In this document: piece by piece, positions 1,479-51,424 of the stretch
Layout: each line of letters begins with the position of its first letter
How positions within the stretch are numbered: position 1 is the stretch's first letter
Source of the DNA: Planctomycetota bacterium
GTDB lineage: Bacteria > Planctomycetota > Phycisphaerae > Phycisphaerales > SM1A02
Direction: 5' to 3'
Length of the DNA: 64,000 bases
Assembly (NCBI GenBank): GCA_027618565.1
Contig: JAQCEQ010000009.1
Span: 1-64,000, forward strand
Program-made: the position numbers and the translations under genes
Notes under the pieces: generated by a model
The model's input: only the letters and a program-made list of their open reading frames with translations
What the model was told of the DNA's origin: nothing
Database searches by the model: none

Positions 1479-2681
1479 CATCAACGCCACCAGGCACGCA
1501 AGGAGCCCAGCCGATGCCCTGGATAGGAGGACGCCTCCCGCAGGGCACTGTGTCGTGAAAGCGACGAGGAGGACGAGCCCTGTCAGCCCCGCCTCCCCGC
1601 CTCGTGCACGCCACGCCCACACGAGGTAGCTGGCCAGGAATCCAAGGAACAGCGTGACGCCGACTGCTCCTTGCTCAAACCAGAGCTGCAGGGGGAGTGA
1701 GTGGGCATTGTGCACATGGGTGTAGTTGCGGGGGATGGCCGTTCCCCAACTGGTTGTGGCGTTCCCTGCCCCAATCGAAGCATCAAAGGCCACGGGCCAG
1801 CTTCCCGCACCGGAGCCGATCAAGGGGTGTTCGATATGGTGAACCGTCCAATCCCAAAGCGTCAAGCGGCGGCTGAGGAACGCATCAATGGACTGGACAC
1901 CATCCGCGCTCAGTGCGCCCGACAGATCGCTGGGGAGCAGACTCGAATACGACTGGATCTTGGCCGCGAGGGGAGTGTTGCTCATGGCGACCCATGCCGC
2001 ACCAATCGTCAGGACGAGCATGAGGCTCGTGATGACCGCCCCCTTGACCGTCCGGCGGCTCGCCATCGCACACACACACACGGCAATGAGTATCGCCCCA
2101 ACCCTTGCTCGGGACGCGGCAAGCGCTGAACCCACAAACCAGGCCGCCAGCAGTGCAGCGCTGGCGCACAGACGCCTCCATCCCTCCCATCGGATCACTC
2201 CAGCGCCCGCAAACGCGCCGAGGAGCATGAGCGCGGCAAGTGTCTTCGAGACGTGATTCGGTACGAGCGCCTCGGGGATCGGCACGCCGAAGTGAAGTGC
2301 CAGGAGAACCGCTGTCCACGCCACGCCAGCCACGCACGCCACCCAGCGGAGGGTCCGCATCGAGAGCGGAGCATGGACGATCAGGAGTGGGGCCAGCATG
2401 AGTCGAAGGTAGAGGCTCGCGGTCACTCCCTCCGGCCGCCAGAGAGATGAAGCGCAGGCCCACCCGACGGTCGCGAGATAGAAGAGGACTGCAGTTCTGA
2501 GTGCCGGACGCTCCCGCAGCCTGGCAACGAAGGTTGGCCACCGAAGCAGTGCTGACACCGCAAGGGCTGCAAAAGCTGCGGCCTCGATCGGCGGGGAGGT
2601 GGTGACGCCCACCACCCACATGAGCGACGCCACGGAATGAACAGTCTCAACAAATGGTCGGCCACCTCGGTGGTTCATCAT
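1440..2681 (-). CDS. O-antigen ligase / Wzy-type polymerase family membrane protein
   Basis: Polytopic inner-membrane protein with about ten hydrophobic segments. It carries the large periplasmic loop typical of the Wzy_C/O-antigen ligase family, seen as RRLTLWDW, HPLIGSGAGSWP and then HVHNAHSLPLQLWFEQG, whose His-Asn pair and aromatic run match the family signature. It probably joins or polymerises polysaccharide repeat units at the periplasmic face. The frame is open up to 2771, but that would overlap the divergent gene at 2737. ATG at 2681 (or 2678) leaves a clean divergent promoter region and is preferred. Ligase cannot be separated from polymerase by sequence alone. Confidence 0.75.
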   Translation of the reverse strand: MMNHRGGRPFVETVHSVASLMWVVGVTTSPPIEAAAFAALAVSALLRWPTFVARLRERPALRTAVLFYLATVGWACASSLWRPEGVTASLYLRLMLAPLLIVHAPLSMRTLRWVACVAGVAWTAVLLALHFGVPIPEALVPNHVSKTLAALMLLGAFAGAGVIRWEGWRRLCASAALLAAWFVGSALAASRARVGAILIAVCVCAMASRRTVKGAVITSLMLVLTIGAAWVAMSNTPLAAKIQSYSSLLPSDLSGALSADGVQSIDAFLSRRLTLWDWTVHHIEHPLIGSGAGSWPVAFDASIGAGNATTSWGTAIPRNYTHVHNAHSLPLQLWFEQGAVGVTLFLGFLASYLVWAWRARGGEAGLTGLVLLVAFTTQCPAGGVLLSRASAGLLACLVALMSVNAAAPEPGRA

Positions 2682-2736
2682 TGCGTAGAGAGTAATCCCT
2701 CGAAGCCATGCTACTGGCCACCAATGTCTTGGGCAC

Positions 2737-3735
2737 ATGCTGCCGGTTTCTCGTGGGAACTCGCCACCCACACCAGTGACCTACTCTCCCACCGTGTTCG
2801 CCGCGTCGATCAACAGTTGGCTCCTTGCGCTGGCTGGCATCGCGCTCGCCGCGGCTCTCTACTGGCTCTCCCGCCGCGGCCCGATCAAGCGGTGGCGACG
2901 AAGGCTGCGGACGCGGCGGGCGGAGCGAGTCTGGTCGCGCGAGGCCGTCGCCGTCCCGCGCGCCGTCTCCTCACGCGTGATCGTTACCCTCACCGCCTCG
3001 CCTGGCCGCATGGTCGCGCTCGAGCAGACGGTCCGGACGCTCCTGAACCAGACCTGTCCGCCCGATGAGATCCATCTCAACATCCCAGAGGTCTTCAGGC
3101 GCACGGGCGAGCGGTATGAGATCCCGGGGTGGTGCTCCCAGGTCGACCCTCGGGTGCGGCTGTTCCGTGTCGAGGACATCGGCCCGGCGACGAAGATGGT
3201 GACGACGGTGGAACGGGTAGGGCCGGCGGAGGACATCCTTCTAGTGATCGCTGACGACGACACGCTGTACCCGCAGGAGACGATTCAAGCGCTGCTCGAG
3301 GCGCATCGCGACGCCCCCTCTACCGTGCACGCCGTATCGGGATACGACCTGGGCCCGCAGTGGGAGTCGGTGTTGGCGAAGGAGGCTCGGCCGGTCGCGG
3401 TCGTCGAAGGTTGGGCCACATTCGTGGCCCACCGACGACACTTCGGTGCGGGCTTTGCCGAGCATGTTCATCGGGTCTCCTCCTGCCGTGCATGCTTTGC
3501 CCATGATGACATCGTGGTCAGCAACTGGTTTGCGCTTCAGGGAGTTGATCGCAGGCAGATACACCACCCGATGGTGAGTCGGCGGCGGTTTCGCCAACTG
3601 GGCGCACAGCAGGACTATGGCTACCTGCCGGGGGCGCTGCACCAGGAGTCGCTGCCATCGGAACGCGCGCGTCAGTGCGCATCCCACCTGGCGTCCCTTG
3701 GATTGTGGCGATTGCCATCCCCGCCCGTCGGCTAG
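2737..3735 (+). CDS. Membrane-anchored glycosyltransferase-like protein
   Basis: An N-terminal membrane helix (about residues 24-45) is followed by a basic stretch and a GT-A-like domain. VIVTLTASPGR begins the nucleotide-binding fold, VRTLLNQT matches the family 2 helix, and VIADDDTLYP near residue 170 gives the DDD metal site. A later FAHDDIVVSNWF block resembles the acceptor-side acidic motif. It is 332 residues long; an in-frame GTG at 2794 would start right before the membrane helix and is an alternative. The neighbours are polysaccharide genes. The sugar donor is unknown. Confidence 0.7.
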   Translation: MLPVSRGNSPPTPVTYSPTVFAASINSWLLALAGIALAAALYWLSRRGPIKRWRRRLRTRRAERVWSREAVAVPRAVSSRVIVTLTASPGRMVALEQTVRTLLNQTCPPDEIHLNIPEVFRRTGERYEIPGWCSQVDPRVRLFRVEDIGPATKMVTTVERVGPAEDILLVIADDDTLYPQETIQALLEAHRDAPSTVHAVSGYDLGPQWESVLAKEARPVAVVEGWATFVAHRRHFGAGFAEHVHRVSSCRACFAHDDIVVSNWFALQGVDRRQIHHPMVSRRRFRQLGAQQDYGYLPGALHQESLPSERARQCASHLASLGLWRLPSPPVG

Positions 3736-7781: not shown

Positions 7782-10055
7782 ATGAGCACGCGAGCCGTCT
7801 CGTTCCTGCTGGCATCAAGCCTCCTTGGCGTGCCCATGGCCGCGGAAGCCGTCGCGTCAGTCGATGCTTCGGTGGTGGCCCCCGTGGTCGCTTCCCCTGT
7901 CGCCTGCCTCGCCCCTACCGACGACTTCCCCGCCACCGCGAAGCGGCTTCGCTACCGCTGGGGTGACGCGATGGAGAGGGCGTACCTGGACGAGGCTCGC
8001 GCCCGGACGCTGGAAGAACTCAAGCGCCTCAAGATCTCGTTGCCGCGAGACTTCCTCTCTTGGATCGACGGCGACGACACGGTCCGCACGACGGTCTACG
8101 GATGCCGCAACAATCCGGTCCCCGTGATCCTGGCGTTGCGATCCTTGGAGATCGACCTGGGCGAGTCGGTGGTCCGAAAGGACTACACGCAGCTGGCCCT
8201 GGCGTTTGCCATCCAGGATTCCTGCGCGCCGCGCTCCCGCAATGCGATGGGATGGAACGATGGTGATCCGCAGGCGAAGGGCGACGAGGCGTCCGCGCTT
8301 CCCGATGTATCGCCGAGGCCACCGCTCACGCTCACGATTCCTGGCGACCCACGCACGCCCATCGACACGAAGGACCCGGCCCGCCCGCGCACGCTCAACG
8401 ATCACATCATCAACTTCTTCGAAGATCACGCGCCGGTGCAGGCCGAGGTGATGACCAAGGAGTTGCCGCCGCTGGAGTACGACGACAAGGGGATCGCCAA
8501 GCCGCGAGGCAAGGCGACGGCTGTCAAGAAGACCGTGGAGCGCCCGCTCGTCGCTGCCGATGTGATTGCGTCCTCCGCGCTTCAGGTCGAGTTCAACCAG
8601 TACATGCGCTCCAGCGGGCACCCAGAAGTGCAGCTCAACTGCGGCGACAAGGTGGTGAGCTGGTTCTCCAACGAGGGGGTGAGTGACAAGGCGATGCAGG
8701 AAGGCATCACCAAGGCCTACAACCTCTTCCACGACGCGTATCGCGCCACGGGTCGCATGCCCGCGGAGCGCGACGGCGCACCATCGGCGTCGGAATCGAT
8801 GGCGTGGTTCATCCGCAACGACAAGCAGCCACGAACTCCCGCGGAGCGCGCCGTGCGGGGCGAGGATCGATTCCCGCTCAACGCCCCGTGGCCTGTCCTC
8901 ATGATGCTGGCGGCAGACGACCAGCCGCTGCGTGAGCGCGAAGAGATCTGGCTCACCTTCACCAATGACGCCGAGATGCGCACCTACGGCGAGTACACCG
9001 GCGGCATCGCCCAGCAGAGCACGATGCAAGCGGCGCGGCGCCTCAGCCCCTTCTCCTTCAGCAACGGTTCGATCCAGATGATGTGGAAGGATGGCGGCGT
9101 GTGCGGCACGATGGGAAACATCGGCGCTCGCACCTATCGCACCTGTGGCGTCCCAAGTTCCACGGCGGGGCAGCCGGGTCACTGTGCGCTGGTGCGAATG
9201 GCGGTGGACGCCAAGACGGGCGACTTCCAGTGCGTGGGGGGCCAGTACGCCACTGGCGGCGACGAGGTCACGCATGTCCACGCGGGCTGGAACTACGACG
9301 ATCGTGGCGAGCGGCGCCACATGGTCTTCCACCAAAGCGTGGCCTGGGGGGTGAACCAGGATCTTGAGTCCTACCTAGACGCGATGGTCTTGGCTCGAGC
9401 CATCAGCGTGCTGTCGCCGGCGGAGCAAGCTGGGGAGGCCAAGTCGTTTGCCGCCGCGGCGATCGCCGAGAATCCGTTTGCCGTGCCCGCTTTTGAGACC
9501 GCGGTACGAGCGTCGTCAGATCCCAAGGAGCTCATCGCCATCGTGGATGACTTCAGCGCTTCGTTCCCCAAGGCCGTTGGCGCCGAGCGCGCCACCACGG
9601 AGTTTGCGCTCTACGGCAGCACCATGCGAGACTTGGTCCACGCACGCATTGCAGCACTTCCCTTGCCCACGGGGCCGGCCGGTGCCGACACGGCCAGCGA
9701 GCTGCTCGATGAACTGGAGCGGCAGGGCTGCACCAACGCCAACTTGCTCGCCGCATGCTGGCGCGCGATCGACGGCGAGGGTGGTTTTTCGGCGGGCTGC
9801 TGCGCCAAGGCGAAGGCCTACCTAGAGAGCCCGGACCGCACCAAGAGCAAGGCCGCCTCGACCGCGTTTGTCAAGCAAGTGAACACCTGGGCCAAGGGAC
9901 TCAAGGGCAAGGCGGCCAAACGCAAGTGGGCCGAAGAGATGCTGGCCGTCTTCAAGGGGAACGAATCGCTCACCATCAAGAAGAAGACCGCTGTGGATCC
10001 GGTCGTGGCGGTGCTGTGCAAGATGGCCGGGGTCGACCTGCCAAAGGCTGGCTGA
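7782..10055 (+). CDS. Secreted protein with transglutaminase-like core, function unknown
   Basis: A 757-residue exported protein with a signal peptide (hydrophobic segment residues 7-24, cleavage near AEA). I do not recognise a named family for the whole. Residues about 436-470 read GGVCGTMGNIGARTYRTCGVP and end in GQPGHC. A cysteine (C441), a helix, a CGVP turn and a downstream histidine (H467) are the pattern of transglutaminase-fold Cys-His enzymes, and HVHAGWNYDDR supplies acidic candidates for a third residue. A Lys-rich segment near residues 685-735 ends the protein. It stands alone, divergent from the polysaccharide genes. A transglutaminase/protease-like role is inference. Confidence 0.7.
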   Translation: MSTRAVSFLLASSLLGVPMAAEAVASVDASVVAPVVASPVACLAPTDDFPATAKRLRYRWGDAMERAYLDEARARTLEELKRLKISLPRDFLSWIDGDDTVRTTVYGCRNNPVPVILALRSLEIDLGESVVRKDYTQLALAFAIQDSCAPRSRNAMGWNDGDPQAKGDEASALPDVSPRPPLTLTIPGDPRTPIDTKDPARPRTLNDHIINFFEDHAPVQAEVMTKELPPLEYDDKGIAKPRGKATAVKKTVERPLVAADVIASSALQVEFNQYMRSSGHPEVQLNCGDKVVSWFSNEGVSDKAMQEGITKAYNLFHDAYRATGRMPAERDGAPSASESMAWFIRNDKQPRTPAERAVRGEDRFPLNAPWPVLMMLAADDQPLREREEIWLTFTNDAEMRTYGEYTGGIAQQSTMQAARRLSPFSFSNGSIQMMWKDGGVCGTMGNIGARTYRTCGVPSSTAGQPGHCALVRMAVDAKTGDFQCVGGQYATGGDEVTHVHAGWNYDDRGERRHMVFHQSVAWGVNQDLESYLDAMVLARAISVLSPAEQAGEAKSFAAAAIAENPFAVPAFETAVRASSDPKELIAIVDDFSASFPKAVGAERATTEFALYGSTMRDLVHARIAALPLPTGPAGADTASELLDELERQGCTNANLLAACWRAIDGEGGFSAGCCAKAKAYLESPDRTKSKAASTAFVKQVNTWAKGLKGKAAKRKWAEEMLAVFKGNESLTIKKKTAVDPVVAVLCKMAGVDLPKAG

Positions 10056-10246
10056 GGCACTGCGACGCTTACTGCCCCGCCAGCACCCGCACCCTCGACA
10101 ACACCACGCTGGTGACGCTCACGCTCACGCGGCAACTCCTGGAATTTGATTCGCTGGGCAACCAGATGTCCGCGCGAACGCTGACGGGGCACATCGCCCG
10201 AGTCCCGCGCTACCGGCTGGTCAATGGGGAGTGGGTGGGGAGGTAG
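10056..10246 (+). pseudogene. Possible small coding remnant after the secreted protein gene
   Basis: In a different frame from the preceding gene, about 50 codons up to the stop at 10246 read a sensible peptide. It includes VTLTLTRQLLEFDSLG, ending RVPRYRLVNGEWVGR. No ATG precedes it; a GTG near 10111 is the only plausible start. It may be the tail of a decayed gene or a frameshifted extension. Evidence is composition only. Confidence 0.25.
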
Positions 10247-10314
10247 GGCTGGGAGAGTCGCAGAACCTCAAGCGACCATCCCGTAGATTCCACCCCCCCG
10301 CCCACAAGTGATGG

Positions 10315-11427
10315 GTGGACTCCCCCAACACCGCCATGACACGCGCTACATCGAATCGATCGACTCCCATTCGCTCCAACGGACTCCCCATGCTGGAGTT
10401 CGTCGCGCGCAACTACCGAAACTTCAACGCGCGGGCGACCCGCGATGCGCTGTTCTCGTATTGGGACCACATCGAGTCGGGCGGCAAGATGTACTGGGCC
10501 GTGGCCGGTGCGATGAGCTCAGCACAACTGGGCATCACCCTGGCGCCAGCGATTCGCGCGGGGTTGATCCACGGACTCTCGGTGACTGGCGCGAACCTGG
10601 AAGAGTCGCTCTTTCGCCTCGTGGCGCATGACGCCTACAAGGACTTCCCCGACTATCGCTACTTCACCAAGGGCGACGACACGAGGATCCTCAAGGATCG
10701 CATGCGTCGAGTCACCGACACCAGCATTCCGGAGGACGAAGCGTTTCGTGCAGTGGAGACGTACTTGGTCCCGATGTGGAAGCGCGCGTCGGAGTGCGGC
10801 GACCGCCGATTCTGGCATGAGTACTTTTATGAGCTGGTGCAGGCGCTCCCCAAGCGCACGCTTGAAGGGAATCCAGCCGAGTGCTGGCTGCTGGCCGCGG
10901 CCGAGGCCAATCTCCCCATCGTGGTGCCGGGCCATGAAGACTCCACCTTTGGCAACATCTTTGCGTCGCATGTGAAGTTTGGCGACTGCGGCGCATCCAT
11001 CGTCAAGAGCGGCATCGAGTACATGGTGAAGCTCTACGACGACTACCGTGCGCTCTCGACCGGCAAGGGCATCGGCTTCTTCCAGATTGGCGGCGGCATC
11101 GCTGGGGATTTCCCGATCTGCGTGGTGCCCAGCATCAAGTACGACCTGGAGCAGAGGGTCAAGCCTTGGGCCTACTTCTGCCAGATCTCGGATTCCACCA
11201 CCAGCTACGGTTCGTACTCAGGAGCCACGCCCAACGAAAAGATCACCTGGGACAAGCTCACCGAGAAGACGCCGATGTTCGTGATTGAGTCCGACGCGAC
11301 GATCGTGGCACCAATGATCCTCACGGCACTGCTTGAGGCGAAGGCCAACCCGAAGGCAGCCACCGCGATCATCGCGAAGAGCCGTGCGGAGAGCAAGCGA
11401 TCGATGGCCACTGTCCGGGGGCGGTAG
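10315..11427 (+). CDS. Deoxyhypusine synthase-like (DHS family) protein, possible homospermidine synthase
   Basis: Member of the deoxyhypusine synthase family, which uses NAD and transfers the aminobutyl group of spermidine through a lysine imine. Visible blocks are MYWAVAGAMSSAQLG (residues 59-73), VTGANLEESLFRL (90-102), FFQIGGGIAGDFPICVVP (255-272) and YSGATPNEKITWDKL (301-315). K314 aligns with the catalytic lysine of the eukaryotic enzyme's SWGKI motif. It has 370 residues, the normal size. Bacteria lack the usual eIF5A target, and some bacterial homologues make polyamines such as homospermidine. Putrescine would come from the AguA/AguB pair at 35728-37604. The GTG start at 10315 is uncertain; ATG at 10336 or 10390 is possible. 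Confidence 0.85.
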   Translation: MDSPNTAMTRATSNRSTPIRSNGLPMLEFVARNYRNFNARATRDALFSYWDHIESGGKMYWAVAGAMSSAQLGITLAPAIRAGLIHGLSVTGANLEESLFRLVAHDAYKDFPDYRYFTKGDDTRILKDRMRRVTDTSIPEDEAFRAVETYLVPMWKRASECGDRRFWHEYFYELVQALPKRTLEGNPAECWLLAAAEANLPIVVPGHEDSTFGNIFASHVKFGDCGASIVKSGIEYMVKLYDDYRALSTGKGIGFFQIGGGIAGDFPICVVPSIKYDLEQRVKPWAYFCQISDSTTSYGSYSGATPNEKITWDKLTEKTPMFVIESDATIVAPMILTALLEAKANPKAATAIIAKSRAESKRSMATVRGR

Positions 11428-35727: not shown

Positions 35728-36720
35728 CTAGCGCGGCTCGTGGCAGCTGAGGCAGTGAAGGCTCCCGAGGCCCACCACGAGGTGGCACGCGCGGATCGGC
35801 ACCGCTCGCAATCCAGCCATCGCCGCCTCGATCGTGCGGCATGCGATCTCATCGCTCTCGCCACCGAAGCATGGCACGAAAACCGAGCCGTTGGCGACGA
35901 GGAAGTTGGCGTGGCTGGCTGGAACCACGTTCCGCCCACCGGGGCCGAATCGATCCGGCGGGAAGTCGTAATAGATCGGCTCTGGCACCGGGAGCTCCAG
36001 CAGCTGGAACGACTCCCCTCGTTCGTCACGCGCGCCCTCGAGAGCGCGCCAATTCTCTTCAAGCACTTCGTGGTCGGGGTGCCCCGCAGGCGCGCGCAGC
36101 GCCGCGATCGTGTCTCGCGCCACGAACCGGGCGATGTCATCGATGTGGCCATCGGTGTCGTCGCCGCGGATCCCGCCGGGAAGCCACACGATGTTGGTGA
36201 CACCCAGTGCATCCCGGAGCGCCTGCTCCACCTCGCCCGGGGACCGTTCACCCCGATTGGCATTCTCCAGGCACTGCCGGGTGGTCAGCACCGTGCCCGT
36301 GCCGTTGACATCGATGGAGCCGCCCTCCAAGACCAACTCGTGCTGCCACATGTCGATCCCCCACCGCTCGCGGATACGCGTAGGGACTTCGTTGTCCAGG
36401 CTCCGAACCTCGTACTTGTCGCCCCACCCATTGAACTGAAAATCGTGACCGGCAACTCGCCCGTCAGGGTGGCGCACGAAGATCGGGCCGAAGTCGCGAA
36501 TCCAAGAGTCGTTGGTGGTGATTCCCTGTTCGCCGAGCTCCACCACCTCGACGACCTGCGCCAGCTCGCGGCGCCAGTCTTCCCACTCGCCTTGCGCGGC
36601 CGCGAGGCAACCCGGCCAGGTCTCCTCGTTGTGCGGACGCACCAGCCAGACCCGGCGCTGCGGCGCCCACTCGGCGGGCATGGAGAATCCGGCGCTCGCC
36701 GCGTCACCCGATTGGATCAC
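35728..36720 (-). CDS. aguA: Agmatine deiminase
   Basis: Hydrolyses agmatine to N-carbamoylputrescine. Family landmarks: MPAEWAPQRRVWLVRPHNEETWPG, TTNDSWIRDFGPIFV, DFQFNGWGDKY, ELVLEGGSIDVNG, the substrate-binding DDTDGHIDD and GLGSLHC near the end with catalytic C323. It has 330 residues from the GTG at 36720, chosen because it overlaps the aguB stop as GTGA; ATG at 36681 is the next option. Oddly, the catalytic cysteine sits in CLSCH where most relatives have a different tail, and the protein ends a few residues later. With AguB it forms a two-step route to putrescine. Confidence 0.9.
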   Translation of the reverse strand: MIQSGDAASAGFSMPAEWAPQRRVWLVRPHNEETWPGCLAAAQGEWEDWRRELAQVVEVVELGEQGITTNDSWIRDFGPIFVRHPDGRVAGHDFQFNGWGDKYEVRSLDNEVPTRIRERWGIDMWQHELVLEGGSIDVNGTGTVLTTRQCLENANRGERSPGEVEQALRDALGVTNIVWLPGGIRGDDTDGHIDDIARFVARDTIAALRAPAGHPDHEVLEENWRALEGARDERGESFQLLELPVPEPIYYDFPPDRFGPGGRNVVPASHANFLVANGSVFVPCFGGESDEIACRTIEAAMAGLRAVPIRACHLVVGLGSLHCLSCHEPR

Positions 36721-37604
36721 GCCGAGGTCCCGTCCAGCATTCTCGAAGTGATGCCGCCGTACGCGTCCACGCGGCGATCTCGAAGGAACGGCCATCCGCG
36801 ACGGATGTCCTCGATGCGCGCTCGGTCGCACCGATGCACCAGCACGGCGGGCTGGTCCTGAGATGCCTCGGCAACGATGACACCGCCTGGGTCGATCACC
36901 ATGCTGCTACCCCAGAAGGTGAGGTCAGCTTCCATTCCAATACGGTTGGCAGCCGCCACCCAGCATCCATTCGCAATCGCGTGCGCGCGGTGCATGGTGA
37001 TCCAGGCATCACGCTGCTGTGCGCAATCGTCGGGCGTCTCTCCGTGGTACCAACCGATGGCTGTCGGGTACACGATCAATTCCGCCCCCTGCAGCGCCGT
37101 AAGTCGCGCCGCCTCCGGGTACCACTGGTCCCAGCAGACGAGCATGCCGGTCTTGGCGACGCCATCCACGACCTGCCACCCTCGGTCGCCGGGAGCAAAA
37201 TAGAACTTCTCGAAGAAGCGAGGATCGTCGGGGATGTGCATCTTGCGGTACGAGCCGAGGATGGACCCATCGCGACCCAGATACACGCTGGTGTTGTGGC
37301 ACAGCCCGGGTGCCCGCTTCTCGAAGAGGCTCACCGTGATCTCCACGCCCAGTTCCCGAGCGAGCGACGCGGCGAACTGCGTGGTGGGCCCGGGAATCGG
37401 CTCGGCCAAGTCCAGCAGGGCCGCATCTTCCTGCTGGCAAAAATAGTAGCCCCCGAAGAGTTCCTGGCTCACGATGAGTTCCGCGCCGCGGCCGGCCGCC
37501 TCGCGCGCCATCGCCGCGAAGGTCACATGGATCTCCTCACGCGTCGCCCCGATCGGGCTGGCGTGCTGGAGGAGGCCGATGGTGAAGTGGTCTGCCCTCG
37601 ACAT
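36717..37604 (-). CDS. aguB: N-carbamoylputrescine amidase (nitrilase superfamily)
   Basis: Hydrolyses N-carbamoylputrescine to putrescine, CO2 and ammonia. The Glu-Lys-Cys triad is visible: E48 in IVSQELFGGYYF, K121 in SYRKMHIPDDPRFFEKFYF, and C157 in GMLVCWDQWYPEAARL. The FFEKFYF and CQQED text is typical of AguB. It has 295 residues, the normal size. It overlaps aguA by four bases and starts 28 bases after an OprB porin, so it could belong to a longer minus-strand transcript beginning near 41355. Confidence 0.92.
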   Translation of the reverse strand: MSRADHFTIGLLQHASPIGATREEIHVTFAAMAREAAGRGAELIVSQELFGGYYFCQQEDAALLDLAEPIPGPTTQFAASLARELGVEITVSLFEKRAPGLCHNTSVYLGRDGSILGSYRKMHIPDDPRFFEKFYFAPGDRGWQVVDGVAKTGMLVCWDQWYPEAARLTALQGAELIVYPTAIGWYHGETPDDCAQQRDAWITMHRAHAIANGCWVAAANRIGMEADLTFWGSSMVIDPGGVIVAEASQDQPAVLVHRCDRARIEDIRRGWPFLRDRRVDAYGGITSRMLDGTSA

Positions 37605-47747: not shown

Positions 47748-48800
47748 TCAGGCGCCGCTCACCACGGCGTCCAGCGGCACCCATGCCAATTGTGGCGTCG
47801 GGAGGGCTTGATCCAAGAGCATCCGGCCACCCTCGATCATCGGGCGCGGGCAGCAGTCCGAGTCGAACAGGTCCGCAGTCGCCAAGCCGTGGTCTCGGTC
47901 GACCGAGCCAAGGACGGCCGCGACGCGCCCGAGCAGCGTCAGCGTGAACGACGACTCGAACAGGTTGGAGAACACCGTGTCGCAGCCGTTGATCGTGCCC
48001 CGCGTGATGATCGCCTCCAGTTCCTCCAGGCGGCCCATCAGGCTGGGCTTCACGACCTGCACCGTGACCCCTTCCGCGCCAAGCACATCGTCCACGATGT
48101 CCGCCTCCCGGAGCGTCTCGTCGATGGCCATCGGGATGCCGGTGCGTCGAGCCAGCTCGGGCAGGAGCTCAGGCCTTGCCAGCGGTTCCTCCACGAACTC
48201 GATCTTCTCCGGGCCAATGGTGCCGAGCAACTCCACGGCAGCGTCAAAGTCAAGCAGCCGATTGGCATCCAGGCGGATGCGCTGGGTGGACTTGAGCTTC
48301 GACCGGAGCACTTTCACCAGCGCAACGTCGCCTTCCAAGGAAACCCGGCCGATCTTGACCTTGATGGTTCTGTATCCCGTGAACCGCCCAGACTTGATGA
48401 CCGCCGCGGCTTCCTCAGCGGTGCCGTCAAAGAGCGCGTTCACGCGGACGAGGGGCTCTCGTGCCGGCGTGACCAGGTTGAATCGATCCGATAGCTCTGC
48501 ATCCACCATCGCTTCGGCGCAACTGAGCCCGAAGGCGGCGCTGGGAGCCACCGGGCAACCGCCGGCGCGAAGGGCCTCCACCAGCCCGCGCATTGCCTCG
48601 TCGAGTGATTCGGCATGGAATCCGGGGAGCGGCGAGACCTCTCCGTAGCCAGTGGCCCCATCCGACTCGAGTCGGATGAAGTAGCCGCGCCGGACTTCGA
48701 TGAGCCCGCGCCCCGACCGAAACGGCGTGCGGAGCCGGTGCTCAAACGGCGCGGCGGAGAATCCCTCCAGGGGGGCGTGACGCATCGTCTCCGTGCCCAT
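47748..48800 (-). CDS. menC: o-Succinylbenzoate synthase
   Basis: Dehydrates SHCHC to o-succinylbenzoate in menaquinone synthesis. Enolase-superfamily residues are all in place: the KxK pair K147/K149 in RTIKVKIG, metal ligands D178 (RIRLDANR), E204/E205 (FVEEPL) and D227 (AIDETL), and K251 in VVKPSLMG. GYGEVSPLPGF marks the N-terminal lid domain. It has 350 residues. The start overlaps the menA stop by one base (TGATG read on the minus strand). Confidence 0.92.
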   Translation of the reverse strand: MGTETMRHAPLEGFSAAPFEHRLRTPFRSGRGLIEVRRGYFIRLESDGATGYGEVSPLPGFHAESLDEAMRGLVEALRAGGCPVAPSAAFGLSCAEAMVDAELSDRFNLVTPAREPLVRVNALFDGTAEEAAAVIKSGRFTGYRTIKVKIGRVSLEGDVALVKVLRSKLKSTQRIRLDANRLLDFDAAVELLGTIGPEKIEFVEEPLARPELLPELARRTGIPMAIDETLREADIVDDVLGAEGVTVQVVKPSLMGRLEELEAIITRGTINGCDTVFSNLFESSFTLTLLGRVAAVLGSVDRDHGLATADLFDSDCCPRPMIEGGRMLLDQALPTPQLAWVPLDAVVSGA

Positions 48801-49753
48801 CAGGCGGCACCTCCGCCAAGCGCCACCGCAAGGGCCATCGCCACGCCGTACGCCAAGGCGACTCCCCCGACCATGTGCAACTCACGGTTGAGCGCAGTCC
48901 CGCTCGCGCCTCGCACGATTCGCCACGCGGATCCAACGAGCACCAGGACAACCAGCGATGAGAGTGCCGCGAACGGCATCCCGTTGAGGGTGGCGATGAT
49001 CGCGACGAGTGCGGCGATCGCGATCCCAAGGATCACCTCGGCCCTGGCGAATCCCTTCCCCAGCCGCACGGCCAGCGTGCGTTTGCCGGTCCGGGCATCG
49101 CCCTCCACATCGCGGAGGTTGTTGATCGCCAGCAACGACAGTGCCAGTCCGCCCGGACCCAGGCCCAGCCACCAGCCATCATTCTGGAAGGAGCCCGTCT
49201 GCGCCGCGACCGTGGCCGCGCATGCGACGGGACCGAAGAAGATGAGCGCGAATGGATCCGCAGCACCCGTGTGCGACAAGGGCGCGGGTCCCGCTGAGTA
49301 GGCCAGCGAGAGGGCGAGCGAGAGCAGCGCCAGCGGCGCAAACCACAGGCTCCGGTGATGGGCCAGGAAAAAGGCGCAGGCGAGCGCCACGACAGCCAGC
49401 CCGACGCAGGCGATGCCGATGGCGCGCGGGGTGAGCCAACCAGAGGCCACCGCCCGAGCGGGGCCCAGCCGATCCGGGCCATCGATCCCGCGCACGCCAT
49501 CAACGAGATCGTTCAGCAGGTTGGTGAGCAACTGGATCGACACCCCGCCAAGGACGGCCACCGCGAGACCGGTGCCATCAAACCGCCCCGTGCGCAGCGT
49601 GAGACCTGCGCCAATCGCACACGGCCCGATCACCGCGCCAAGCGTCTTGGGGCGTGCGGCAGCAAGCCAGGCGTGTGCCGCCGTCGGCCGTGCCGACGGG
49701 TTCGCGGCGGAGTCGGCGGAGTCCTCGGAGTCGGCTTGTTCGCGGTCGGTCAT
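48800..49753 (-). CDS. menA: 1,4-Dihydroxy-2-naphthoate polyprenyltransferase
   Basis: Attaches the isoprenoid tail to DHNA in the inner membrane. UbiA-family Asp motifs are visible: [22 protein letters not shown] with [11 protein letters not shown], and [23 protein letters not shown]. About eight transmembrane helices follow from the hydrophobic pattern. ATG 49753 overlaps the menB stop by four bases (ATGA) and gives 317 residues; the open frame extends to 49960 inside menB and is rejected. It opens with an acidic Asp/Ser/Glu tail. Confidence 0.93.
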
Positions 49754-50625
49754 GGTTGTCGCGGGAACCTGGAGAAGTCGGGAGGGCGCTTCTCCAAGTA
49801 GGCGTTGCGGCCTTCTTGGCCCTCGGCACTCATGTAGAAGAGCATCGTGGCGTTGCCGGCCAGCTCCTGCAGGCCGGCCTGGCCATCGCAGTCGGCGTTC
49901 AAGGCCGCCTTGAGGCATCGAATCGCGACAGGCGAGTTGCCGAGGATCTCGCGACACCACTGGACGGTGGTCGATTCCAGGTCTGCCAGCGGCACGACCA
50001 CGTTCACCAGCCCCATCTCAAGGGCCTGCCTGGCGTCGTAGGAGCGGCAGAGAAACCACATCTCGCGCGCCTTCTTCTGTCCGATGATGCGCGCCATGTA
50101 CGACGCGCCCCATCCGCCATCGAAGGAGCCGACGCGCGGGCCCACCTGACCAAAGCGAGCGTTGTCGGCGGCAATCGTGAGGTCGCAGATCATGTGGAGC
50201 ACATGGCCGCCGCCGATCGCCCATCCCGCGACCATCGCGATCACGGGCTTAGAGCATGTTCGGATCTCGCGCTGAAAGTCAAGCACATTGAGGTGCTGGG
50301 TGCCGTCGCCGTCGCGGTAGCCAGCCTCGCCCCGCACGCGCTGGTCACCGCCGGAGCAGAATGCCAGGTCGCCCGCGCCCGTGAGGATGATCACGCCAAT
50401 CGATGCATCCATCCGCGCGTCCTGCAGCGCCTCGCGCATCTGCGCCACCGTCTCGGGCCGGAAGGCATTCCGCACCTCGGGCCGGTTGATGGTGATCTTG
50501 GCGATGCCTTCGTCGCCCGCGCCCGACGACTTCTCATAGACGATGTCGGAAAACGACCCAGCGGGCGCCCACTGCGGGGTGGCGCGGGAGGGGTGCACAT
50601 TGGCTGGCGGGGTGGCGCTGGGCAT
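49750..50625 (-). CDS. menB: 1,4-Dihydroxy-2-naphthoyl-CoA synthase
   Basis: Crotonase-family ring-closing enzyme converting o-succinylbenzoyl-CoA to DHNA-CoA. Very characteristic MenB text: [90 protein letters not shown], and a C-terminal [24 protein letters not shown]. It has 291 residues, normal. It lies seven bases downstream of menH and overlaps menA. Confidence 0.97.
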
Positions 50626-50632
50626 GGTCCGT

Positions 50633-51424
50633 TCAAAGGCTGGCGAGTCGTTCGATCGCTGCGGCGCACGCCGCGGGAGCTTCCAGGTGCACCGCGTGGC
50701 CGACTGCAGGGACCACAGTGGCTGGCGTCACGCCAAGCTCCTCCATCCGGTCAGCATGGGCACGGTAGGCGCGATCCATCGAACCGACGATTGTACGAAT
50801 GCGAGGGGCACAGAGCCCAATGGTGTCCCAATCCGCCCGAGCACGCCCCGGGCTGCACGCACGCACGATCTTGGCGCACCACTGGGCTGACTCACCAGCC
50901 CGGCGGGACTGGATGGCTCCAAAGCCCGCCGACGCCCGCAGCGAATCAAAGAGTGGCTGCCTGTACCAGGCGTCCAGAAATGAACCAAGCCCGCCCTCCA
51001 CGATCTGCCGAGCGCGCTCGTCGTCCAGCGCACGCCGCGCAGCTCGGTCATTGTCGTCCTCAAGGCCTCCCGTCCCTGAAATGAGGATGCATCGGGACAT
51101 TGCGGGTGGCGTGCCAGTCACTGGAGTACTCGCGGCAGTGTCCTGCGCCAAGGCGCGAAGCGCCACGCGGGCACCAAGGGAGTAGCCAACCACGGTCGCA
51201 CCCACGAGTCCCTCCGACTCCAACCATGAGAGCAGCCCACGCGCGAGGGCATCGATGCCTTCTCGCTCGACCGACTCGCCTGTGGCGAGCGATGCCAGCG
51301 CGGGCGCGCGCACCACCGCGCTGGTTGATGTCCACTGGTACCCACGCTCGCGCCCCGCCCGAACCACTTCATCAAAGTCCTCCGGCGCACCCAGGAATCC
51401 GTGCAGCAGGATCGTCGTCGGCAT
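50633..51424 (-). CDS. menH: SHCHC synthase, alpha/beta hydrolase
   Basis: Eliminates pyruvate from the MenD product SEPHCHC. An alpha/beta hydrolase of 263 residues: oxyanion segment [15 protein letters not shown], nucleophile S82 in [13 protein letters not shown], and histidine in [13 protein letters not shown] near the end. The acidic residue is probably in [11 protein letters not shown]. The assignment to MenH rather than a general esterase rests on its place between menD and menB. The gap to menD is eight bases. Confidence 0.85.

Follow-up and report, generated by a model that had tools for sequence, protein, structure and literature searches.

The window, a 64,000-nucleotide stretch of planctomycete DNA, encodes a protein of the deoxyhypusine synthase (DS) fold which we take, at a probability of roughly 0.7, to be an NAD-dependent homospermidine synthase of a divergent, SpeY-like kind. 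The formation of homospermidine from putrescine is an already known bacterial reaction; the new element is an enzyme branch with a changed active site. As judged by sequence comparison, this divergent DS clade is widespread, has an altered active site and is covered by no curated family model. The gene is intact and retains Lys314, Glu308 and Trp312, and its genome holds putrescine pathway genes and lacks recognized spermidine and hypusine genes. The substrate, the product and the imine chemistry are inferred, carried over from human deoxyhypusine synthase (DHS) and from characterized bacterial SpeY. The features discussed below are collected in Table 1.

Table 1. Positions in the window of the DS gene, its active-site codons and the related genes.
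Feature	Position	Strand	Remarks
ORF of 757 aa, just upstream of the DS gene	7782-10055	+	
DS-fold protein, D-type of the divergent clade	10315-11427	+	370 aa, one intact ORF
Start codon	GTG 10315 or ATG 10336	+	ATG option based on the start shared by relatives
N214 codon	10954-10956	+	human Asp243 position (F204 in Thermus CdmS); alignment
D265 codon	11107-11109	+	human His288 position, motif GGGIAGDFPICVVP; alignment
Y301 codon	11215-11217	+	human Asp316 position (L286 in Thermus CdmS); alignment
K314 codon	11254-11256	+	catalytic lysine (human Lys329), in ITWDKL; alignment with solved DHS
C-terminal tail, residues 345-370	11347-11424	+	in D-type members, absent from G-type; predicted helix
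aguA, agmatine deiminase	35728-36831	-	PF04371, 290 bits; true start probably downstream of the listed GTG
aguB, N-carbamoylputrescine amidase	36717-37604	-	TIGR03381, 251 bits, under the cut-off of 410; VCWDQWYPEAAR Cys motif
menC, menA, menH-like (classical-route menaquinone genes)	47748-51424	-	

Fold and family placement

The first-pass annotation had named a bacterial DHS-like enzyme, and this assignment is borne out by the PF01916 (Pfam DS) match in a profile search (111 bits against a cut-off of 27, E 7.7e-32), by the predicted DHS fold and by K314. The AlphaFold2 model, built from a 34-sequence alignment, has a pLDDT of 86 and a pTM of 0.85, with the active-site loop 294-306 poorly modelled. 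Compared with human, archaeal and other DHS structures, it gives Z values of about 27 over 293 residues and an rmsd of 2.7-2.8 Å. Since the model has the DHS fold and 588 confirmed relatives are present in other genomes, the ORF is no chance frame. It is the only DS copy in the window genome. The upstream ORF has no Pfam match, does not cluster with the neighbour proteins of the relatives and is not found near their DS genes. By tblastn, the DS gene had no match in either a plasmid or a phage collection.

Seven NCBIfam DHS models match the window protein, every one with a score far under its cut-off. The equivalog cut-offs are missed for SpeY (NF001980, 92 versus 450 bits), for deoxyhypusine synthase (TIGR00321, 67 versus 304 bits) and for CdmS (NF002699, 48 versus 500 bits). 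Within the class, DS is present in 146 of 198 genomes, most of which carry a high-scoring type; the three of these that were tested pass the CdmS model with 560-606 bits. The low-scoring type is found in the window's own order. In the alignment, its motifs are GGGIAGDFPIC...GSYSGAxPNEKITW, and those of the other type are GGGVPKNF...GALSS...EASSWGK; the GGGIAGDFPIC and ITWDKL motifs separate the window protein's clade from the SpeY/CdmS-like DS compared here. The other type is also separated from the divergent clade at a support of 100 in a quick maximum-likelihood tree, which carries SH-aLRT support only and places the long branches L078 and L080 uncertainly. The window protein does not group with known inactive proteins, an outcome that would have spoken against the first-pass reading; its clade includes the sole DS of Flavobacterium and of Empedobacter. 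The 588 relatives were found by scanning 84,980 species genomes; among the best 80 of them, the identity is about 80% in Planctomycetota, Myxococcota, Acidobacteriota, Kiritimatiellota and Paceibacterota and 54-58% in Bacteroidota. In three planctomycete genomes (G004, G006 and G053), the DS of the other type satisfies or resembles the NCBIfam model of caldomycin synthase. Since AguA and AguB are present there and a ureohydrolase is lacking, the curated name probably over-reaches for this type.

Active-site residues

The mapping of residues to human DHS rests on alignment with solved DHS structures and on the published work. In the human enzyme, Lys329 is the catalytic lysine and carries the imine intermediate (PMC7226451). 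The first-pass annotation had proposed K314 as its counterpart, which is confirmed by the alignment with solved DHS and by the invariance of this residue across 34 relatives from several phyla. E308, W312, G260 and G261 are likewise invariant in this alignment. The residue preceding K314 is Asp313, a position occupied by Gly in most relatives. Compared with human DHS (1DHS and 6XXJ), the fold and the equivalents of E323, W327, K329 and D238 are kept, and the positions of D243, H288 and D316 read N, D and Y in the divergent clade. Thus, the description of the DHS motif as intact stands for E308, W312 and K314 and fails at N214, D265 and Y301. In CdmS, the aligned substrate-site residues differ from those of human DHS at two positions, Asp243 and Asp316, where F204 and L286 are found (PMC10981699); N/Y is therefore a third combination at these positions. 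The replacement of His288, which shuttles protons in human DHS, by Asp265 and the change of two ligand-site acids speak against the homospermidine reading, as do the missed model cut-offs, the rarity of polyamine genes near D-type loci and the co-existence of the D-type with another DS in Corallococcus and Sorangium.

Polyamine genes of the window genome

A polyamine-forming role, as first suggested, is the best-supported reading of this gene content. PF01287 (eIF5A) has no match in the window genome (G000), in keeping with the first-pass remark that bacteria have no hypusinated eIF5A, and the control search matched in three archaea. AdoMet decarboxylase (AdoMetDC) and spermidine synthase were not found by profile searches of the same genome, and no carboxyspermidine decarboxylase (CASDC) scores over its cut-off; the genome is 97% complete, and each of these absences could be an assembly gap. 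SpeA is present above its cut-off (734 bits). The best NCBIfam match of AguA is agmatine deiminase, with 207 bits under a cut-off of 382. Two ureohydrolases are also encoded: one is agmatinase-like, at 173.4 versus a cut-off of 174.3, and the other is closest to formimidoylglutamase. Because of the borderline agmatinase-like protein, AguA and AguB are not necessarily the sole route to putrescine. The first-pass annotation had noted aguA and aguB in the same window as the DS gene; both are present, but they are 24-25 kb away and unlinked, and operon linkage was rejected at this distance of about 24 kb. Putrescine supply is thus present through SpeA, AguA and AguB, with no other recognized triamine pathway found in the window genome. 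Given the absence of eIF5A, AdoMetDC, spermidine synthase and CASDC, the DS gene is the only candidate for a triamine-forming enzyme.

Bacterial HSS (Blastochloris viridis type) belongs to an unrelated protein family and has the same product as that proposed for the window protein. The PF03435 search for it gave a single 44-bit match in the window genome, in a protein of 378-388 aa that has no NCBIfam match and is presumably shorter than HSS. HSS is excluded only weakly on this basis. In the window genome (L154:757-2250 and 2198-3334, minus strand), a saccharopine-dehydrogenase-like protein, without an NCBIfam match, adjoins a group II PLP decarboxylase.

Proposed reaction

In the proposed pathway, arginine would be converted to putrescine by SpeA, followed by AguA and AguB and perhaps also by the agmatinase-like ureohydrolase. 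Putrescine would be oxidized with bound NAD, and the aminobutyl group would be held on K314 as an imine. Its transfer to another molecule of putrescine, followed by reduction, would yield sym-homospermidine and NH3. Putrescine was first assigned as the acceptor, a role it keeps here; it must also be the donor, because no recognized spermidine pathway was found. Like SpeY (Anabaena; NF001980/PRK00770), the window protein has the DS fold, the catalytic Lys and a supply of arginine-derived putrescine in a bacterial genome where neither eIF5A nor another triamine enzyme was found. Unlike SpeY, it falls far short of the SpeY model and has a C-terminal tail. Bacterial SpeY converts putrescine to homospermidine (PMC9992855), and the Anabaena enzyme is described as a bacterial DHS-like homospermidine synthase by Burnat et al. 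(2018), as cited in PMC10407285 and PMC9992855. In the planctomycete Gimesia maris, speY is present and aguA/aguB lie at another place in the genome (PMC10407285); the main polyamine of this species is homospermidine (PMC4334474).

Co-occurrence with polyamine genes

We compared 40 genomes of the class, chosen around the window genome and 93-100% complete. In this set, DS goes together with arginine decarboxylase and does not occur with the carboxyspermidine route. CASDC scores over its cut-off in 0 of 33 genomes with DS versus 4 of 7 without it (Fisher p 4e-4), and SpeA or an AdoMetDC-fold homologue is present in 32 of 33 versus 2 of 7 (p 2e-4), both tests ignoring shared ancestry. In the window's family, all six D-type genomes have SpeA, and two members without DS also lack SpeA. 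Four genomes (G060, G072, G078 and G189) combine this DS clade with AguA and AguB and have no ureohydrolase, and the only ureohydrolase match in two D-type genomes, G161 and G193, is weak (146-152 bits). DS relatives lie beside speA and/or agmatinase at eight places (G125, L049, L101, L118, L122, L123, L125 and L126). In G072, G078, G189 and G096, SpeA is lacking and AdoMetDC homologues are present, which are candidates for AdoMetDC-derived arginine decarboxylases (SpeDA); spermidine-synthase-like domains occur there only in long proteins or not at all. In G137, G177 and G063, no DS, SpeA, AdoMetDC or carboxyspermidine decarboxylase was found, and triamine synthesis may have been lost there.

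In chemotaxonomy, homospermidine has long served as a marker for Flavobacteriaceae and for many planctomycetes. Genomes of Flavobacterium, Empedobacter, Chitinophaga, Mucilaginibacter and Parapedobacter have exactly one DS each, of the divergent clade; in the first two genera, it immediately follows an arginine decarboxylase-like gene. These Bacteroidota DS are of the G-type and share the GGGIAGDFPICVVP and PNEKI motifs with the window protein; they differ in the Gly before the catalytic Lys and in the lack of a C-terminal tail, and sometimes adjoin an arginine decarboxylase gene. The major polyamine of all Flavobacteriaceae is homospermidine (PMC3072086), at 20-27 µmol per g in two Flavobacterium species (PMC8570120). 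In the literature searched, we found no polyamine report for Chitinophaga or Mucilaginibacter, no measured polyamines from any cultured bacterium of the window's class and no measured activity for any member of the divergent clade.

D-type and G-type subclades

Among 100 loci, the motif at the catalytic Lys is ITWGKL in 68 (one of them ISWGKL), ITWDKL in 30 and ITWEKL in 2; the window protein belongs to the ITWDKL (D-type) subclade. The tail is present in most D-type proteins and is shorter in some Paceibacterota; G-type proteins lack it and are about 324 residues long. The D-type forms one side of a branch with a support of 80, or 100 with L078 included, in the quick tree. It is common to the five phyla with about 80% identity named above. 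DS genes are also found in the tiny Patescibacteria/Paceibacterota genomes with few biosynthetic genes (L071, L072, L073, L074, L075, L064 and L068). In the window's family, two genomes have the G-type (G125 and G167), which in G125 directly follows speA and agmatinase; six have a solitary D-type (G000, G084, G102, G155, G161 and G193), which falls together with sequences from myxobacteria and others. From this distribution, the D-type has probably spread by horizontal transfer, and the simplest reading for the window's family would be the replacement of an older G-type copy by this means. No conserved neighbour of D-type genes was found in the neighbourhoods of the relatives, and only 1 of 30 D-type loci is near polyamine genes, with agmatinase about 1.4 kb from the gene at L064. 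Corallococcus and Sorangium carry two DS, one of the D-type and one of a different type. For the other DS of Corallococcus, which lies near a SpeA gene, the SpeY model is the best fit, with 282 bits versus a cut-off of 450 (L155:5777-7090 and 8199-10256). Since a second DS is present in these genera, the role of the D-type there may be separate.

Alternative functions

There is a small chance that the D-type is not a plain homospermidine synthase and catalyzes a new DS-fold reaction, in which the aminobutyl group comes from a new donor or goes to a new acceptor, or a protein lysine is modified. A specialized aminobutyl transferase, mainly of the D-type, which has the same chemistry and uses another acceptor (another diamine, the head group of a lipid, N-carbamoylputrescine or a lysine in a protein such as EF-P), is rather improbable. 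The D-type is marked by Asp313 next to the catalytic Lys and mostly also by the C-terminal tail, its genes are usually solitary, and it is the second DS in the two myxobacterial genera; moreover, Myxococcus makes homospermidine lipids (PMC9548883). However, the D-type is the only DS in the D-type genomes of the window's family and travels with SpeA, and in the sister genera G125 and G167 its place is taken by G-type copies, which suggests that the two are interchanged. No specific acceptor is supported by the evidence found.

The second alternative is an agmatine-homocoupling route of the CdmS type, in which caldomycin is trimmed by a ureohydrolase. Like the window protein, CdmS, the caldomycin synthase of Thermus (NF002699), has the DS fold and the catalytic Lys and leads to homospermidine, and it uses agmatine only (PMC10981699). 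SpeA and the near-threshold agmatinase-like ureohydrolase of the window genome fit this route, as does the position of G-type relatives next to speA and sometimes agmatinase. Nevertheless, we consider it unlikely: the CdmS model scores less than a tenth of its cut-off, and the F/L signature is replaced by N214/Y301. In the four clade-bearing genomes with AguA, AguB and no ureohydrolase, caldomycin could not be trimmed in this way, and G161 and G193 have only the weak ureohydrolase.

A catalytically dead or repurposed protein, like the regulatory DHS paralogue of trypanosomes, would account for the changes at His288 and the two substrate-site acids, and such a regulatory subunit exists (6dft). 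This reading is very unlikely, as all 34 sequences compared, from several phyla, keep K314, E308 and W312, the single-copy gene has no active partner paralogue in the genome, and the clade is tied to polyamine genes and homospermidine-rich taxa. Lastly, a true deoxyhypusine synthase acting on an eIF5A-like protein shares the fold and the catalytic lysine and was rejected as hardly credible, since the genome has neither an eIF5A domain as substrate nor a recognized spermidine supply, the TIGR00321 score is far too low, and His288, Asp243 and Asp316 are replaced.

Implications

If the divergent clade does make homospermidine, it would be the missing enzyme of Flavobacteriaceae-type Bacteroidota and of this planctomycete order. 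The DHS fold would then work without the human catalytic histidine and with different ligand-site residues. The movement of a D-type copy among distant phyla, displacing an operon-borne copy, would, if true, be a clear case of the exchange of a pathway part.
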